Positions 4,751 through 14,711 of a DNA stretch of 31,903 bases are shown in pieces. The notes under the pieces were generated by a model that saw nothing but the letters and a program-made list of their open reading frames with translations, was not told the origin of the DNA and made no database searches. Numbering within the stretch: position 1 is the first letter of the stretch; each line of letters begins with the position of its first letter. The DNA comes from a virus. A program made the translations under genes and the position numbers. The stretch spans positions 1-31,903 of the IMG/VR virus record IMGVR_UViG_3300020442_000271; one strand, written 5' to 3'.

Positions 4751-4824
4751 AAGAGTTTAGTGTAATGGTAACACGCTAAGTTCCAACCTTAGAAATGTGG
4801 GTTCGATTCCTACAACTCTTGCCA
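4751..4824 (+). tRNA. trnW: tRNA-Trp (anticodon CCA), CCA end encoded
   Basis: A full cloverleaf can be drawn. Acceptor arms AAGAGTT (4751-4757) and AACTCTT (4814-4820) pair perfectly. The D stem is GTGT/ACAC with loop AATGGTA. The anticodon stem CTAAG/CTTAG encloses loop TTCCAAC, giving anticodon CCA at 4783-4785, which reads UGG. The T stem GTGGG/CCTAC has one G-T pair and loop TTCGATT. Discriminator G4821 is followed by an encoded CCA. It is the only tRNA seen. It may support translation of Trp-rich phage proteins, or compensate for damage to host tRNA. Confidence 0.93.
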
Positions 4825-5086: not shown

Positions 5087-5307
5087 CAAACCCAACTATA
5101 AAAATACATGACCGTATTATGCAGACCGTAGTAGAGTTAACAGAAGAAGAACATGATCCATTTGCGGTGGCGGGCTGTTTGCTCGCCATTGCTATCTTTG
5201 TATACCGATCTGAAAAAATGGAATGGAACACGATTAGTAACCTGTTATCTGAATGCGTTAAACAAAGTGTTATATCCGAAGGCATAGTAAAGGAGACCTT
5301 ACATTGA
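5083..5307 (+). CDS. Hypothetical protein (74 aa) with a hydrophobic central helix
   Basis: The product begins MTNPTIKIHDRIMQTVVEL and has a central HDPFAVAGCLLAIAIFVYRS segment that could be a buried helix or a short membrane span, followed by an amphipathic helix (WNTISNLLSECVKQSV). It overlaps both neighbours by 4 nt: ATGA at the start and TTGA at the end. No family recognised. Coupled to the DUF1599-like gene, so it may work in the same nucleotide-related process. Confidence 0.7.
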   Translation: MTNPTIKIHDRIMQTVVELTEEEHDPFAVAGCLLAIAIFVYRSEKMEWNTISNLLSECVKQSVISEGIVKETLH

Positions 5308-5588
5308 AGAAAGAAACCTATTTATACGATGCAATAAAAGTACTAGAAGAATGTACAGAGTTAATGATTAAGAAAGGTAAAGACTATCAAGGTGGTTCCG
5401 TATGTGATGATGACTATTACCCACATGGGTGGAAGTCATTTGATAGTATGTTAACAACTAAGATACTACGATTTAGATCTGTTATGGAACAACAAGGCGA
5501 TGTAAACTATGATACAGCCGATGATTGTCTTAGAGATCTAATTAATTATGCAGCACGTTGTGTTGTATGGCTTAACAGGAATAAATGA
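5304..5588 (+). CDS. DUF1599/Nmad1-like protein (nucleotide-modification associated)
   Basis: 94 aa from a TTG start, with AAGGAG 8 nt upstream and an overlap with the previous stop (TTGA). The pattern KKGKDYQGG, then a long gap, then MLTTKILRFRSVM, then DCLRDLINYAARCVVWL resembles DUF1599, also described as a nucleotide modification associated domain. That family is found in phages next to enzymes that alter DNA bases. Its stop overlaps the start of the thymidylate-synthase-like gene, so the pair is almost certainly co-translated. The match is by pattern only, hence moderate confidence. It could instead be a divergent MazG-type all-alpha protein. Confidence 0.6.
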   Translation: MKKETYLYDAIKVLEECTELMIKKGKDYQGGSVCDDDYYPHGWKSFDSMLTTKILRFRSVMEQQGDVNYDTADDCLRDLINYAARCVVWLNRNK

Positions 5589-6289
5589 TGACTAACACAG
5601 TAAAAGATATACGCACAACATTTATTGATATGTATCGAGACAAAGAGATACAGCCTGATGGTAATCTTGAAATCATAGGTGCTAGCTTTTTAGCAACTGA
5701 ACCGACAATATTTGGTAAACCGAATCGTGAATATCAAGAAGCTGAGGTCAGATGGTATGATACACTCAGCTTAAATCTTAAGGAGTTAGAGAAAGAATAT
5801 GGAAAAGTACCAGTCATTTGGAAAGAGCATGCGGCGAATAGTAAAGGCGACATTAATTCTAATTATGGCTATCTCGTGTATAGCGCTCTTAACGGAACTC
5901 AATATGAATATGTACTTCAAGAGCTAAAGCAAAACCCAAATTCACGTAGAGCTACAATGGTGTATACTAATCCTAGTATGCACACCCAATACAGAGAGCA
6001 CGGTAAGAACGATTTTGTTTGTACTAATGCAGTAACATATTACATCAAAAATAAATTAATACATGCTGTAGTACAGATGAGATCTAATGATGCTGTGTTT
6101 GGCTACATAAATGATTTGTTTTGGCAACGCACCGTCTTGCGTAGACTGTGTAAAGATCTTGGATACGAAGAAGGTCAGATAGTATGGCAAGCTCAGAGCT
6201 TACATGTGTACCCAAGACATTTTCATTTGATTGATGATTATCATTACTCAGTACCAGTTGATTACGAAATGGGAGCATACGATGACTAA
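5585..6289 (+). CDS. Thymidylate synthase / dCMP hydroxymethylase family enzyme
   Basis: 234 aa. Landmarks of the family fall at almost exactly the E. coli ThyA numbers when counted from the ATG at 5585: paired Arg 121-122, catalytic Cys146 (FVCTN), Arg166-Ser167 and Asp169 (MRSND), and His207-x-Tyr209 (SLHVYP). The residue equivalent to Asn177, which in thymidylate synthase contacts the uracil ring, is Asp177 here (INDLFW). Asp at this place is characteristic of dCMP-using relatives, and the Asn-to-Asp change converts thymidylate synthase to a dCMP methylase. The likely product is therefore 5-hydroxymethyl- or methyl-dCMP, though dUMP use cannot be excluded. It is translationally coupled to the DUF1599-like gene upstream. 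Confidence 0.85.
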   Translation: MMTNTVKDIRTTFIDMYRDKEIQPDGNLEIIGASFLATEPTIFGKPNREYQEAEVRWYDTLSLNLKELEKEYGKVPVIWKEHAANSKGDINSNYGYLVYSALNGTQYEYVLQELKQNPNSRRATMVYTNPSMHTQYREHGKNDFVCTNAVTYYIKNKLIHAVVQMRSNDAVFGYINDLFWQRTVLRRLCKDLGYEEGQIVWQAQSLHVYPRHFHLIDDYHYSVPVDYEMGAYDD

Positions 6290-7170: not shown

Positions 7171-7258
7171 AGGAAAAGCATTGTTACTTACTATGGCAAT
7201 TTGCATAGTAGGAACCTTAATATTAAACGCAATAGTATATGGAGTTATAAATGGCTAA
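7163..7258 (+). CDS. Small single-span membrane protein (31 aa)
   Basis: MTEGKALLLTMAICIVGTLI continues with LNAIVYGVING, giving one transmembrane helix. It overlaps the upstream gene by 8 nt and the downstream methyltransferase gene by 8 nt. It fills what would otherwise be an 80-nt gap in a tightly packed operon, which supports its reality. Function unknown. Confidence 0.6.
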   Translation: MTEGKALLLTMAICIVGTLILNAIVYGVING

Positions 7259-8090
7259 CGCAAGAGGAAAAGAAATAGATAATACGCATTTAAGTATAGA
7301 CCAAGCAGAAGCTAGAGGCTTTATACATAGAGATTATATAGCTCACTGCTTACGATGGACTAAGATAGCTAAGGATCTAAACCTTGGTGGTAAGTATAAA
7401 GAAGCCGACATAATAGATGTAGGCTGTGGTAAAGATATGCCGTTAGCTAGAATGCTAATGACAAATCGTATGGCACCAAGAAGCTATGTAGGTATTGAGT
7501 ATAATAAAATGGAAATGCCACATATGTTTGATAACACTACATTTCAGCCACATCTAATAGACAATGTAGACTTTACACAAACCGACATAATGGAAGATAG
7601 TTTTAATGTTAGTGTTTGTCTTGAAGTGCTTGAGCATGTTGAACCGACAAAGGCAATAGCGATTTTAGATAAGCTAGCTGATGTAGTAGTGCAAGGTGGC
7701 ACATGTTACTTTTCAACACCATGTTATGATGAAAAGGTAGGAGCAGCTAAGAACCACGTAAATGAAATGACTTATCGAGCATTTGGTGCTTTGTTAGAAG
7801 CAAGAGGCTTTCAAATAATAGATCATTATGGTACGTTTGCTTCACAAAAAGACTACAAGCATGAGCTTGACGGTAACACAAAGTACCTGTATACAAAGCT
7901 TAGCGAGTACTACGATACAAACTACCTTGCAACTATCTTTGCACCGTTATATCCTAGTATGTCAAGAAACGTATTATGGAAATGTATTAATACACAAAGC
8001 AAAGACTTTAATAAAAGATTTCCGCCTATTAAAGAGATAGGTGGTAGATTAGGATCTTCTGAAAAAGCCGATGACTTAAGATATGCGTGA
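7251..8090 (+). CDS. Class I SAM-dependent methyltransferase (279 aa)
   Basis: The SAM-binding glycine motif (IIDVGCGKD, residues 54-62) is followed by the acidic ribose-binding residue (YVGIEYN, Glu83) and by CLEVLEHVEP, typical of Methyltransf_23-type proteins. The second half (GFQIIDHYG...) is family-like but gives no substrate. There is no DPPY- or PC-type catalytic motif as in DNA adenine or cytosine methylases, so a small molecule, tRNA or hypermodified base is more likely than direct DNA methylation. The start has GGAG at 7 nt. Its stop overlaps the next gene start. It could belong with the nearby base-synthesis genes. Confidence 0.82.
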   Translation: MANARGKEIDNTHLSIDQAEARGFIHRDYIAHCLRWTKIAKDLNLGGKYKEADIIDVGCGKDMPLARMLMTNRMAPRSYVGIEYNKMEMPHMFDNTTFQPHLIDNVDFTQTDIMEDSFNVSVCLEVLEHVEPTKAIAILDKLADVVVQGGTCYFSTPCYDEKVGAAKNHVNEMTYRAFGALLEARGFQIIDHYGTFASQKDYKHELDGNTKYLYTKLSEYYDTNYLATIFAPLYPSMSRNVLWKCINTQSKDFNKRFPPIKEIGGRLGSSEKADDLRYA

Positions 8091-8631
8091 GCCAGAAAGA
8101 TACTATGACTGGATGCTATGGAAATTAAAACAGGAGAAAGATATGAATGCTAAATGGTCTAAAGTAAGTAGCGATACTGACTGGCCTAAAAATATTAGAG
8201 ACATGCACCTCAAATTCGGGGTGCATGATTGGGTTAAAAGAAAACTACAAGAAAAAGATTACTATTCTTTACACGAGTTTCTACAATTTCGTTTAAGGTT
8301 CCTTGATGAAGAACTGCATGAGACTAAAGAAGCAGTAAAGTACCGACATGCAGATGATATTGTAGACGGCTTGATAGACTTGTGCGTAATCGCGATAGGT
8401 ACGCTAGACATACTACAAGTTGATGCGCACACTGCTTGGCACAGAGTACATAGGTCTAATATGAGTAAAAAGGTAGGTCAAAAAGAATCAAGACCTAATA
8501 CTTTAGGTTTACCCGACATGATTAAGCCGGAAGACTGGGTTGAACCTGATCATACAAACAACACCGGCATTACTCACTATTTCTTAAGAAAGGATTACGT
8601 CGATGACGAACCAGACTATGAGCAAAAGTAG
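8083..8631 (+). CDS. MazG-like nucleotide pyrophosphohydrolase (182 aa)
   Basis: The core FLDEELHETKEAVKYRHADD followed by IVDGLIDLCVIAIGTLDILQ has the acidic helix pairs (EExxE and DxxxD) of the all-alpha NTP pyrophosphohydrolase superfamily, and AWHRVHRSNMSKK is a typical phage MazG-like end. These enzymes hydrolyse noncanonical or excess (d)NTPs, and some act in alarmone control. The start at 8083 overlaps the methyltransferase stop but has a poor ribosome site. An in-frame ATG at 8143 has AGGAG at 6 nt and would give 162 aa, so both starts are possible. Confidence 0.75.
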   Translation: MREPERYYDWMLWKLKQEKDMNAKWSKVSSDTDWPKNIRDMHLKFGVHDWVKRKLQEKDYYSLHEFLQFRLRFLDEELHETKEAVKYRHADDIVDGLIDLCVIAIGTLDILQVDAHTAWHRVHRSNMSKKVGQKESRPNTLGLPDMIKPEDWVEPDHTNNTGITHYFLRKDYVDDEPDYEQK

Positions 8632-8804: not shown

Positions 8805-8847
8805 AGCGCGGTATACACCGCGCTACCTAAATATAATCAATGAAAGG
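8805..8847 (+). promoter_or_regulatory. Early hairpin element E, leader of the DNA polymerase gene
   Basis: AGCGCGGT (8805-8812) and ACCGCGCT (8817-8824) form a perfect 8-bp stem about the loop ATAC, followed by ACCTAAATATAATCA and the AAAGG ribosome site of the polymerase. Stem sequence differs from all other copies while length, loop and flank agree. It separates the upstream cluster from the replication core, so it probably starts a second transcription unit or stabilises its mRNA. Confidence 0.72.
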
Positions 8848-8854
8848 ATTATTA

Positions 8855-10696
8855 ATGCAATTAGTATTTGACATAGAAACTGATGGGTTTTTAGAAGACA
8901 TGACTAAATGCCACGTATTAGTATGCCAAGATGTTGTAACAAAAAAGCTATACACATTTACAGATATTAAAAATGGTTTAGATTTTATGAGCAACGCAGT
9001 TGCACTAATCGGTCATAACATTATTGGTTTTGACTTAATGGCGTTAGAAAAACTTTACGGTTGGAAACCGTCTCCTAAAACCAGATTAGTAGACACATGG
9101 ATTATGAGCCAAACATTACAGTTTAACCGATCTCATAAGCATGGTTTAGCGGGCTGGGGTAGTTATCTTGGCTACAAAAAGATGGATAACAGTGAATGGG
9201 CTGCTGATGGATTTAAGACATACGATCCTCGCATGATAGATTACTGTATAAATGACGTAAAACTAAATACAAAAGTTTACGAAGTATTACTAGCTGAACT
9301 ACAAAAAGCTATAGAAATCAATGACTTAATCAAGAAAGGCTTGAGAGTCGAACATGATGTAGCTGAGTTCGAAGCTGTAGTACGTAAAACTGGCTGGCTA
9401 TTTGACTTGGAGAAAGCTCAAGAAAACTTAAGACTTATGACAAGACACATGAATAAAATTGAGTCTATCATTGAGCCGAAGCTAGGTACAACTAAAGTAT
9501 TTATAGATAAAGCACCTAAAACTGCTAAGTATACTAAGAAAGGATTGTATACAGCTACTACAGCTAGAATATTATCTGAATACTTAGGTAACAAAGTAAT
9601 AGGTGAAGATGCGTTATCTAATAATCCACCAATACAACCTGGTCAAGAGTTTCAAAGAAGTAAAATAGAAAAAGTAACATTGAGTAACATGGAACTAGTT
9701 AAGCAATGGCTACTAACTATTGGCTGGAAACCAGATGACTGGAATGTAAAGAGAGGACATACAGGTAATTGGATACGTACAGGACCTAAGCTTACATCAA
9801 CTTCACTAGCAAAGCTAGGTAGACAAGGTAAGCTAATTGATAGGTACTATACTATTAAGAACCGTAAAGCAACCATTGAGTCTTGGTTAGAAAGGATTCA
9901 GAAAGATGACACAGGAAACTATCGTCTTCATGGTAGGATGTTTACTATTGGTACTCCTAGCTTTAGATGCCGTCACGAAGTTATCGTTAACTTACCAGCA
10001 GTGGATGCAGAGTATGGTAGAATGCTTAGGGAACTATTTATTGCTGAGCCAGGTTATAGGGTTGTCGGTGCGGATAGTGCTGGGAATCAGCTCCGTGGTT
10101 TATGCCATTACGTGGGAGATAAATCCTACACAGACTTGGTGGTCAATGGGGATCAACATACACGCAATGCTGATGTTCTTGGTTGTAGTAGGAGCGTGGC
10201 TAAGTCTTTTCTCTACGCTATTCTATTTGGTGCAGGTGATGCAAAGCTTGGGCAAACTCTTACGGGAGTAAGCAGTGCGCCTAAAGGTAAAGAAGCTAGA
10301 CAAAAGTTCATGGCTAACTTACCTGGGTTTGAGCAGCTAGTTAACAAACTACGTGGAGTATTTAACCAGTATGGTTGTATACCAGGACTAGATGGTCGTA
10401 AGATCTTTGCTAGATCTGATTACCAAGTACTTAATTATCTATTACAAACTACTGAAGGTATTACTTGTAAAGCAGCTTTAAGTTATGCTATGAATAAAAT
10501 TAAAGAGGAAAAGCTTGATGCTTATCCTGCTATATTCTATCATGACGAGCAAGCATGGATTGCAAGTGATAAAGATTCTAAACGTGTAGGTGAAATACTA
10601 CAAGAGTCTTTTCGTGAAGCACCTAAATGGTTTGGTGTTGAATGTATGGACGGTGGTGATTATGTAATAGGCAACTCATATGCGGAGGTACACTGA
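8855..10696 (+). CDS. T7-like family A DNA polymerase with 3'-5' exonuclease
   Basis: 613 aa. ATG at 8855 chosen because AAAGGA lies 6 nt before it; an in-frame ATG at 8840 overlaps that site. Exonuclease motifs: FDIETDG (Asp6, Glu8), HNIIGFD (Asp60), YCINDV (Asp134). Polymerase motif A is GADSAGNQLR (Asp407), motif B RSVAKSFLYAILFG (Arg446, Lys450, Tyr454), motif C YHDEQ (His563, Asp564, Glu565), all matching T7 gp5 order. Tyr454 corresponds to T7 Tyr526. Two unusual changes: the steric-gate Glu (T7 Glu480) is Gln412, and T7 Tyr530 is Phe458. A segment at about 10020-10275 is GC-richer than its surroundings with different codon choice. The size is smaller than T7 gp5 (704 aa). Confidence 0.95.
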   Translation: MQLVFDIETDGFLEDMTKCHVLVCQDVVTKKLYTFTDIKNGLDFMSNAVALIGHNIIGFDLMALEKLYGWKPSPKTRLVDTWIMSQTLQFNRSHKHGLAGWGSYLGYKKMDNSEWAADGFKTYDPRMIDYCINDVKLNTKVYEVLLAELQKAIEINDLIKKGLRVEHDVAEFEAVVRKTGWLFDLEKAQENLRLMTRHMNKIESIIEPKLGTTKVFIDKAPKTAKYTKKGLYTATTARILSEYLGNKVIGEDALSNNPPIQPGQEFQRSKIEKVTLSNMELVKQWLLTIGWKPDDWNVKRGHTGNWIRTGPKLTSTSLAKLGRQGKLIDRYYTIKNRKATIESWLERIQKDDTGNYRLHGRMFTIGTPSFRCRHEVIVNLPAVDAEYGRMLRELFIAEPGYRVVGADSAGNQLRGLCHYVGDKSYTDLVVNGDQHTRNADVLGCSRSVAKSFLYAILFGAGDAKLGQTLTGVSSAPKGKEARQKFMANLPGFEQLVNKLRGVFNQYGCIPGLDGRKIFARSDYQVLNYLLQTTEGITCKAALSYAMNKIKEEKLDAYPAIFYHDEQAWIASDKDSKRVGEILQESFREAPKWFGVECMDGGDYVIGNSYAEVH

Positions 10697-11121
10697 TGAC
10701 ATGGGTAGAAGTATATTATAACTTACATAATAAGACCTTTTCAGTAAGACACGCAGGTAGAGTATGGTTTCATACTAATGTACTAACATTACATAACTGT
10801 AAGTTTGCAGTACAACCTGCTGGTCGAGCAAAGGTTCTTAAAGAAAAGAGAAAAAACGTACACGCTTTTATAAGAGGATTCTTTGTTAGAGGTGATGATC
10901 ATACTAACCATAGAATGCTTCATAAGTCACAAGCAATGTACAACCCGTATAAAACTTCTACATTTGTAGACGTAGATACGGGCGAACCAGTATATGAAGC
11001 TGATACAGTTTACTTAAATAACTGTTGGCCAAGACCGGAGATTTATTATGAGAGTTCCAAAGGTTCCAGTAAAAATAAAGCTTCCGTTAATAAACCCAGT
11101 AGCAAGAGCATTGCTGCGTGA
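10696..11121 (+). CDS. Conserved-looking hypothetical replication-arm protein (141 aa)
   Basis: The start overlaps the polymerase stop (TGATG). The first part (MTWVEVYYNLHNKTFSVRHAG through FAVQPAGRAKVLKEKRKNVHAFIRG) is compact, beta-then-helix and basic, and resembles short proteins I have seen beside T7-like DNA polymerase genes, though I cannot name a family. The tail (KGSSKNKASVNKPSSKSIAA) is low complexity and is read in another frame as the next small gene, so it is probably disordered. Nucleic-acid binding is possible from the charge. Not assigned. Confidence 0.75.
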   Translation: MTWVEVYYNLHNKTFSVRHAGRVWFHTNVLTLHNCKFAVQPAGRAKVLKEKRKNVHAFIRGFFVRGDDHTNHRMLHKSQAMYNPYKTSTFVDVDTGEPVYEADTVYLNNCWPRPEIYYESSKGSSKNKASVNKPSSKSIAA

Positions 11122-12262: not shown

Positions 12263-13865
12263 GCGCTATCCTTGCGAAGATTGTGGAAGCTCTGATGGTG
12301 TAATGCTAGACACTAGCGATGACCATACATATTGCTTCGCATGTGGGACGTATCGTAATGAAGATACTAAAGTATATACTAAGATTAAAGGAGTAACGAG
12401 TAATGAACAACCCAATGCCAATACAAATAATAATGGACAACCTGACATCACCGATATTGATAAGTATCCTAGTCTTGGTATTACTAGCCGAAGTATTTCG
12501 TCGCATGTGACTGAATACTTTGGAGTAAAAACCCATCAATACGATGATAAGCCAGCACATTTCTATCCATATGGAGATGACTGCTACAAAGTACGCATAC
12601 TACCTAAAGAGTTTAGAATGATAGGTAAAGCTAAAAAGCTTTTCGGTCAAGATAAATTTACTGGTGGTAGAATGCTAGTAATTACTGAAGGCGAACTAGA
12701 TGCACTAACAGTAGCACAAGCTTGTTTAGATTTTAACAAGAGAATATATCCTGTTGTATCTATACCGTCTGCTAACCAGCTACAAATATTATTACAACAA
12801 CGTGAATGGATCAGACGCTTTGATTCTGTTATAATATGGTTTGATAATGATGATGCTGGTTCAAAAGCTATACATGAAGCCAGTAAAATTATTGGCTTTG
12901 ATAAAGTTAAAATAGTTTCATCAGATCAAAAAGATGCTAGTGATTTATACATGAAGTATGGTGCAAAAGAAGTTACTAATGTAATATGGAATGCACAAAA
13001 GTATAATCCAGCCGGCATACTTAGTGGTGAAGTTATATGGGATAAGTTTATAGAACGCCAGAATACTGAGTCTATACCATACCCGTCTTGTCTAAATGGC
13101 CTTAACGATAAACTAAAAGGCATGCGTCAAGGTGAGATAACACTATTTACTAGTGGTACAGGCTCAGGTAAATCTACAGTTATCAAAGAAATTATTTGGC
13201 ATTTACTACGTACAACTCAAGAAGACCGCATTGGTCTAATATCTCTTGAAGAAAGCGTAGGTGATACAGCTGAAAAGTTTATTGGTATGACTATTAATAA
13301 ACGTATTGGTGATGTGCCAACAACAGAAGAGGAACTACGTACTGGTTTCAATCTAGTATTTAAAGACGAAAGACTTATACTACTAGACCATCAAGGTTCT
13401 GTTGATGATAGCTCTTTGATAGACAAGATAGAGTACATGGCTCTTATGGGATGTAAGTATTTATTCCTAGATCATATTACTATTGCAGTATCAGAAGGTA
13501 GTGAAGGACTATCAGGCAATGAAGCAGTAGACAAAGTTATGAGTGACTTACTAAAGGTAGTAAAGAAGCATAACGTATGGCTAGGTATTGTAAGCCACTT
13601 ACGTAAATCAGGTGGTGGTGCATTCGAAGAAGGCAACATGGCTTCTATTGACGACATCAAAGGTAGTGGTAGTATCAAACAAATATCATTTGATATTATT
13701 GCTTTTTCAAGAAACCTAGTAGCAGCTAATCCTGCTGACAGAAACAAGATTGAGTTCTCAGTTCTTAAATCTAGGTACACAGGTCTAACCGGTCCAGCAG
13801 GTATCAGTAAATACAATCAAGTAACTGGTAGGTTAGAGAAAGGAGATGGCTTTGAAATTATCTAA
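12240..13865 (+). CDS. Bifunctional primase-helicase (T7 gp4-like)
   Basis: 541 aa from a TTG at 12240 with GGAG at 7 nt; a TTG at 12234 is an alternative. Domain order: zinc-binding domain (CEDC at 12-15 and CFAC at 32-35), TOPRIM primase core (ITEGELDAL with Glu150; WFDNDDAGS with Asp202 and Asp204), then RecA-like helicase with Walker A TSGTGSGKST (Lys311) and Walker B YLFLDHI. Length is close to T7 gp4 (566 aa). It unwinds the fork as a hexamer and makes lagging-strand primers for the DNA polymerase. The start is overprinted on the RusA end and its stop on the deaminase start. Confidence 0.95.
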   Translation: MNKSVDNKRYPCEDCGSSDGVMLDTSDDHTYCFACGTYRNEDTKVYTKIKGVTSNEQPNANTNNNGQPDITDIDKYPSLGITSRSISSHVTEYFGVKTHQYDDKPAHFYPYGDDCYKVRILPKEFRMIGKAKKLFGQDKFTGGRMLVITEGELDALTVAQACLDFNKRIYPVVSIPSANQLQILLQQREWIRRFDSVIIWFDNDDAGSKAIHEASKIIGFDKVKIVSSDQKDASDLYMKYGAKEVTNVIWNAQKYNPAGILSGEVIWDKFIERQNTESIPYPSCLNGLNDKLKGMRQGEITLFTSGTGSGKSTVIKEIIWHLLRTTQEDRIGLISLEESVGDTAEKFIGMTINKRIGDVPTTEEELRTGFNLVFKDERLILLDHQGSVDDSSLIDKIEYMALMGCKYLFLDHITIAVSEGSEGLSGNEAVDKVMSDLLKVVKKHNVWLGIVSHLRKSGGGAFEEGNMASIDDIKGSGSIKQISFDIIAFSRNLVAANPADRNKIEFSVLKSRYTGLTGPAGISKYNQVTGRLEKGDGFEII

Positions 13866-14298
13866 GGACGATGCGATGTACATGAACATTGCTAGAGTAG
13901 TAGCCCTTAGATCTCGTGACGAACAATTCAAAGTAGGTGCAGTAATAGCTAAGGGTAATAAGATCCTTAGCTACGGCTGGAATGGTACACCTCACGGTAT
14001 GGATAACAATACACGAGATGCTAATGGTAAAACTAAATGGGAATTAGTACATGCAGAAACAAATGCAATAACTAAGTTAGCAGCTTCAACTTCGTCTTCT
14101 GAAGGTGCTACATTATATTTAACACATTCACCCTGTAAAGACTGCACTAAACTTATATTACAAGCAGGTATAAAGCGAATGATATATGCTGAGATGTATA
14201 AATCTAATAAGAATGGTAAACGAGTACCTGAGTTAGAAGCATTAAAGTTTTTGTTAGATAACGGTGTGGAGGTGCATGAATGCGAAACATTGAAATAA
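13852..14298 (+). CDS. dCMP deaminase (148 aa)
   Basis: Zinc site HAE (His67, Glu69) and PCKDC (Cys95, Cys98) identify a deoxycytidylate deaminase, which converts dCMP to dUMP for dTMP synthesis. The start MKLSKDDAMYMNIARVVALRS is typical when read from the TTG at 13852, for which AAGGAG lies 6 nt upstream. An ATG at 13846 would add two residues but sits directly on the ribosome site. The presence of a deaminase beside a thymidylate-synthase-like enzyme with Asp177 means dCMP could be routed two ways. It overlaps the helicase end by 14 nt and the GIY-YIG gene start by 19 nt. Confidence 0.92.
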   Translation: MKLSKDDAMYMNIARVVALRSRDEQFKVGAVIAKGNKILSYGWNGTPHGMDNNTRDANGKTKWELVHAETNAITKLAASTSSSEGATLYLTHSPCKDCTKLILQAGIKRMIYAEMYKSNKNGKRVPELEALKFLLDNGVEVHECETLK

Positions 14299-14711
14299 GA
14301 GAGAATACTAATGAAGTTATTAGGTATCCTGAAGATATGTATTGTGTTTACTTTCATCAAGACCCAGAGACTGATGAGGTAATTTACGTAGGTAAAGGTA
14401 CATTACATCGAGCTTATCAAATTACAAACCGTAGTTATGACCATCACGTATGGTTACTAGATAAGCTTGATAACTACAAGATACAAGATATTGTTAAGAT
14501 AAAAGGCGGTCAAATGACCGACAAAGAAGCTACTATTGTAGAAGCTCATGAAATAAAATGTTGCCTAAGAAAGGGATCTGACTTACTTAATGTAGCTCAG
14601 AATCCTTTTCGCAAAACAAGGAGAATGAATGCAGAATATAATAGATTATCTGGAGCAGAAGATACTAAGCACACCTCAAAGGTGGGCAGTGAAGCTAGTA
14701 CTCGAGCATGA
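14280..14711 (+). CDS. GIY-YIG-type nuclease-like protein (143 aa)
   Basis: The catalytic module can be traced: YCVYFHQDPETDEVIYVGKG gives the two Tyr elements (residues 21-25 and 36-38), Arg44 follows (TLHRA), then a Glu (VEAHEI) and a final LLN. This is the GIY-YIG order. GGAGG lies 7 nt before the ATG. The remaining tail (SGAEDTKHTSKVGSEASTRA) is overprinted by the RNA polymerase start and is probably unconstrained. It lacks an added DNA-binding domain of large homing endonucleases and there is no visible intron, so it may be a stand-alone nuclease for host DNA degradation or gene exclusion. Confidence 0.7.
   Translation: MRNIEIRENTNEVIRYPEDMYCVYFHQDPETDEVIYVGKGTLHRAYQITNRSYDHHVWLLDKLDNYKIQDIVKIKGGQMTDKEATIVEAHEIKCCLRKGSDLLNVAQNPFRKTRRMNAEYNRLSGAEDTKHTSKVGSEASTRA

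Follow-up and report, generated by a model that had tools for sequence, protein, structure and literature searches.

The thymidylate-synthase-family enzyme encoded at positions 5585–6289 of an uncultured virus raises the question of which nucleotide it makes. The window, that is, the whole stretch of DNA analyzed here, is a 31.9-kb linear IMG/VR record (IMGVR_UViG_3300020442_000271) and represents a genome fragment. It encodes a T7-type RNA polymerase, a family A DNA polymerase and a primase-helicase, and its structural genes are convergent. When 17 kb of the window was compared with phage records by megablast, no match was found, indicating that no close isolate of this virus exists among the records searched. 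Among isolates, Roseobacter phage CRP-7 has the closest RNA polymerase; it has the same types of RNA polymerase, DNA polymerase and primase-helicase as well as convergent structural genes. However, the RNA and DNA polymerases of the two are just 33% and 36% identical, respectively, and CRP-7 is devoid of a thymidylate-synthase family gene and gives no match to the Nmad1, MazG, deaminase or methyltransferase of the window. The gene order of the window is also found in a 56-kb relative, G001 (L020). In this relative, a ribonucleotide reductase-like ORF, judged by eye, lies amid the structural genes (L020:2921–4657), and the structural region of CRP-7 likewise holds annotated ribonucleotide reductase pieces. 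The window also has a tRNA-Trp (CCA) gene at 4751–4824. The features relevant to the question, together with the DNA polymerase gene for context, are as follows.

5304..5588, + strand: Nmad1/DUF1599-like small helical protein, 94 aa (PF07659, E 0.0019, below cut-off)
5585..6289, + strand: predicted T4 gp42-type dCMP hydroxymethylase of the thymidylate synthase family, 234 aa, ATG start
7251..8090, + strand: phage-specific class I SAM methyltransferase, candidate tailoring enzyme (PF13489, E 1e-10; AlphaFold pLDDT 91)
8083..8631, + strand: MazG/PRA-PH-type nucleotide pyrophosphohydrolase, candidate dCTP-depleting enzyme (PF01503, E 4e-7; phrog_671, E 1e-22)
8840..10696, + strand: family A DNA polymerase (PF00476, E 4e-16)
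13846..14298, + strand: dCMP deaminase (PF00383, E 6.5e-25; PF14437, E 5e-18)
14280..14711, + strand: possible GIY-YIG (LEM-3-like) nuclease (PF22945, E 0.011, below cut-off)

The DNA polymerase gene is adjoined by an ORF (10696–11121) with a strong match (E 1e-33) to PF25735, the family of gene 82 of mycobacteriophage L5.

Residues and relationships of the enzyme

The assignment of the ORF to the thymidylate synthase family in a preliminary description holds, but its match to Pfam PF00303 (E 1e-14) is far weaker than that to T4 deoxycytidylate hydroxymethylase in the PDB (1b49; phmmer E 3.3e-59). The product also belongs to PHROG 160 (E 5e-42), and is 48.8% identical to T4 gp42 and 22% to E. 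coli ThyA. Its best score against the curated NCBIfam thymidylate synthase models is 53.5 bits, below the cut-off of 174.55. Similarity to this enzyme at E 1e-5 is found in about 2.5% of phage records (1,278/50,697).

As described earlier, and in agreement with our alignment, the enzyme has Cys146, Arg166, Asp169, His207 and Tyr209 in E. coli numbering, with Asp at position 177; all six are invariant across the gp42-type alignment. Equivalents of the catalytic Cys148 and of Glu60 of T4 are both kept. In the ternary structure of the T4 enzyme, Asp145, located three residues before the catalytic Cys, together with Ser94 and Tyr96 forms a hydroxymethylation signature, Asp179 is the cytosine determinant, and the missing C-terminal tail of thymidylate synthases is a further feature of the enzyme (PMC6400193). 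The window enzyme has Asp143, again three residues before the Cys, Ser92 and Tyr94 at the corresponding positions. It stops 25 residues past Tyr209, while E. coli ThyA extends 55 residues further than this Tyr, and Trp83 and Leu143 of thymidylate synthases are not retained. Each of the 80 recovered gp42-type viral loci has Asp177, and the signature residues are likewise invariant among them; equivalents of T4 Asp145, Cys148 and Asp179 are invariant in 69/69 hydroxymethylases linked to the methyltransferase, a set overlapping with the former. The enzyme thus shares with T4 gp42 (PDB 1b49, 1b5e, 6a9b) the catalytic, cytosine-recognizing and water-activating residues and the lack of the tail. It differs in that Arg59 and Arg177, which contact the folate tail in gp42, are replaced, and in a one-residue insertion near T4 Val85; moreover, the gene resides in a T7-like marine virus, not in T4.

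In a maximum-likelihood tree of 54 rows, the clade that holds the enzyme (15 rows, support 95/84) also contains T4 gp42 and sequences from Serratia phage PS2 and Micrococcus phage Kurnik, and E. coli ThyA and T4 Td fall outside it. This tree, which the preliminary description had proposed, and Asp177 itself both support its suggestion of specificity for dCMP. Judged from its sequence, the enzyme is a homologue of T4 gp42 and not just a ThyA in which a single residue has changed, and 5585–6289 can be assigned with high confidence to a dCMP hydroxymethylase of this family. The simple ThyA reading of the ORF was rejected on the residues and the tree.

A different enzyme is found in Pelagibacter phage Kolga. 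Its thymidylate-synthase homologue, gp35 (L070:9473–10258), has Asp177, but Leu at the position of T4 Asp145, Trp at Trp83 and a long C-terminus, and has the look of a dCMP methylase producing 5-methylcytosine, not of a hydroxymethylase. What stands at 145 is alignment-dependent; by eye, the catalytic Cys is the one followed by His.

Gene neighborhood and the modified base

The preliminary description does not mention the linked Nmad1-like, MazG, deaminase and methyltransferase genes, the first three of which form a conserved setting. In the window, the Nmad1-like gene overlaps the start of the hydroxymethylase gene by 4 bases; of the 57 gp42-type loci with enough upstream sequence, 50 have such a gene no more than 2.6 kb upstream. 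In the T4-like Serratia phage PS2, a homologue immediately precedes gp42, and in Kolga the Nmad1-like gene adjoins the thymidylate-synthase homologue. The protein scores 18.9 bits against DUF1599 (Nucleotide modification associated domain 1), for which the Pfam gathering score is 25, and its structural model (pLDDT 85) has no significant fold match, with PRA-PH, AF_0060 and DCTPP1 appearing as weak rows (E 2–5) that do not count as evidence. MazG, whose gene overlaps that of the methyltransferase, is present in 41/44 gp42-type loci, and the dCMP deaminase gene is located within 1.3 kb downstream in 47/72. In the MetaGPA study, PF00303, PF01503, PF00383 and PF14437 co-occur on cytosine-modified contigs, and Asp177 is discriminating (PMC8670742). 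All four domains are found in the window. Contigs of that study with thymidylate synthase and carbamoyltransferase (5cmdC; PMC8670742) share with the window an Asp177 enzyme accompanied by PRA-PH and dCMP/MafB19 deaminase domains; however, no carbamoyltransferase was found in the window or its relatives, a methyltransferase taking its place. ThyX was not found in the relatives either. The possible GIY-YIG nuclease gene is kept in the clade loci covering the region. In T4, DNA with unmodified cytosine is cut by endonuclease II, which is also of the GIY-YIG type, and by this likeness the candidate could degrade host DNA.

Stenotrophomonas phage AXL3 provides a cultured counterpart. Its operon (gp27–gp31) brings together the methyltransferase, MazG, a hydroxymethylase and dCMP deaminase like the window, although AXL3 also has a kinase gene and, reportedly, a separate ThyX-type gene, and its hydroxymethylase belongs to another subfamily. 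The AXL3 authors read this operon as one for dTMP synthesis (PMC7504290). Only 2 of 37 restriction enzymes, TasI and Tru1I, both with A/T-only sites, cut AXL3 DNA, and all 35 enzymes tested with G/C in their sites are resisted (PMC7504290). For comparison, T4gt DNA with 5-hydroxymethylcytosine (5hmC) and glucosylated T4 DNA resist 81.9% and 94.3% of enzymes, respectively (PMC7653180). Because the enzyme panels differ, the higher resistance of AXL3 may, but need not, point to a modification that goes further than 5hmC itself.

Three other outcomes can be weighed against this background. If the methylene intermediate were reduced, a dCMP methylase would result and 5-methylcytosine would fill the genome as in phage Xp12, a known case of such a genome (PMC7653180). 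According to work cited in PMC8670742, dCMP methylation is obtained by the Asn-to-Asp change at Asn177 of E. coli ThyA and Asn229 of L. casei. The preliminary description had left methylase and hydroxymethylase open; its proposal of dCMP use stands, and hydroxymethylation is now favored because all the published marks of it, the Asp143, Ser92 and Tyr94 signature and the missing tail, are present in the window enzyme, with neither Trp83 nor Leu143 kept, so that a methylase appears quite improbable. Alternatively, the enzyme could be a thymidylate synthase that turns dUMP into dTMP, with dUMP provided by the dCMP deaminase encoded in the window, in keeping with the name that databases frequently give to such proteins. 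Asp177 in place of Asn, the position in the gp42 clade and the lack of the tail make this alternative extremely improbable.

Since the deaminase gene belongs to the cassette, it might also turn hydroxymethyl-dCMP (hmdCMP) into hmdUMP, by which thymine, not cytosine, would be replaced. T4 carries a dCMP deaminase of its own and yet keeps hydroxymethylcytosine. Furthermore, AXL3, with an operon of this type, has DNA that the A/T-only enzymes still cut, and this argues against modified thymine and fits Asp177. This third outcome is accordingly regarded as very improbable, and hydroxymethylation of dCMP leading to a modified cytosine remains the preferred reading.

Candidate tailoring enzymes

The methyltransferase is the most distinctive neighbor. 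It is found in four distinct annotated phages (five records), and MazG, hydroxymethylase and dCMP deaminase genes accompany it in 4/4, although AXL3 and PW916 are close relatives and the four therefore count as about three independent cases. As a baseline, the roughly 2.5% of phage records given above contain anything similar to the window's hydroxymethylase. Among viral contigs, 69 of the best 80 of 107 methyltransferase loci have a thymidylate-synthase-family gene nearby, and in 69/69 this gene encodes an Asp177 hydroxymethylase; the loci are partly non-independent. In the remaining 11, the contig is short or breaks off close to where the hydroxymethylase would lie, and the absence of the enzyme there is therefore uninformative. 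Between the window and locus L090, the methyltransferase is 62% identical while the hydroxymethylase is 17% identical, indicating that one methyltransferase goes with two non-orthologous hydroxymethylase subfamilies. A scan of 84,980 cellular genomes yielded one clear homologue, which is 44% identical and sits on a 4.2-kb contig from a metagenome bin; 20 further matches were weak and partial.

What the methyltransferase acts on is less clear from its fold. The O-methyltransferases ChlM, CmoM and UbiG are among its best structural matches, but the list is tied (Z 16–19) and does not identify the substrate. The enzyme may act elsewhere, on tRNA or a host metabolite, and be merely co-transcribed with a hydroxymethylase that makes hmdCMP. 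This would agree with the tRNA and small-molecule methyltransferases among the tied neighbors, with the PHROG label of the family (tRNA methyltransferase), and with the fact that the methyltransferase is missing from most gp42-type loci. Such a role is a real possibility, but a minority one in our judgment: the 69/69 linkage extends to both Asp177 hydroxymethylase subfamilies, all four annotated phages follow it, the family is almost absent from cellular genomes, and the methyltransferase never co-occurs in the clade with TAGT, a glycosyltransferase described below. A tailoring role is thus somewhat favored from the linkage. As a more specific guess from linkage and fold, which is tentative and rather unlikely to be right in its details, the enzyme might O-methylate the 5-hydroxymethyl group, either on the nucleotide or once it is in DNA, giving 5-methoxymethylcytosine in window-type viruses and AXL3-like phages. 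No description of this compound as a phage base was found in the literature searched, nor was any paper on this methyltransferase found in a search that had most subscription papers outside its reach.

Sister viruses offer a further view. Members of the RNA-polymerase clade in which the region is complete have the methyltransferase, a TAGT glycosyltransferase (PF20691) adjoining the hydroxymethylase, or neither, and never both: 5 of 11 loci have the methyltransferase, 4 TAGT and 2 neither. This exclusivity corresponds to about p = 0.045 by hand calculation if the loci are independent, but they are related, so the support is weak. TAGT resembles annotated hydroxymethylcytosine glucosyltransferases of T4-like phages. 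The pattern, from few and related loci, suggests that the methyltransferase and TAGT may be alternatives for tailoring the same 5hmC base. In two TAGT-carrying relatives, a pyrimidine dimer DNA glycosylase gene (PF03013, E 1e-5) comes straight after the hydroxymethylase gene (L049:2180–2674 and L052:2477–2980).

Proposed pathway and its meaning

The best overall explanation, which we consider quite probable, combines a gp42-type hydroxymethylase, dCTP depletion, replacement of cytosine and probable tailoring. By homology with T4, Cys146 would attack C6 of dCMP with methylene-tetrahydrofolate as the donor, Asp177 would recognize and protonate the cytosine, and Asp143 (T4 Asp145) would activate a water molecule that adds to the methylene intermediate to form 5-hydroxymethyl-dCMP. 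MazG, perhaps also the Nmad1-like protein, would deplete or tune dCTP. The conversion of hmdCMP to the triphosphate would be carried out by a host or unrecognized kinase. T4 has a dNMP kinase (DNMK), whereas neither thymidylate kinase nor T4-type dNMP kinases were found in the window clade, and this absence is the main gap in the proposed pathway; the replaced folate-tail contacts Arg59 and Arg177 and the fragmentary state of the window also weigh against it. The phage polymerase would then put the hydroxymethylated nucleotide in the place of cytosine, so that cytosine in virion DNA is likely replaced by 5hmC. The linked methyltransferase would probably tailor the base further, on the nucleotide or in DNA, and the outcome would be shielding of virion DNA from host nucleases.

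On this reading, small T7-like viruses of the ocean would replace cytosine in the manner of T4. Furthermore, gp42-type enzymes in a conserved setting of Nmad1-like, MazG and deaminase genes are common among environmental viral contigs. In the cultured phages AXL3 and PW916, the operon has been read as one for dTMP synthesis, though AXL3 DNA is known to be restriction-resistant. The phage-specific methyltransferase family is flagged here as a candidate tailoring enzyme. Probably, this virus builds its DNA with disguised cytosines, and it may add to them a decoration new to the literature.
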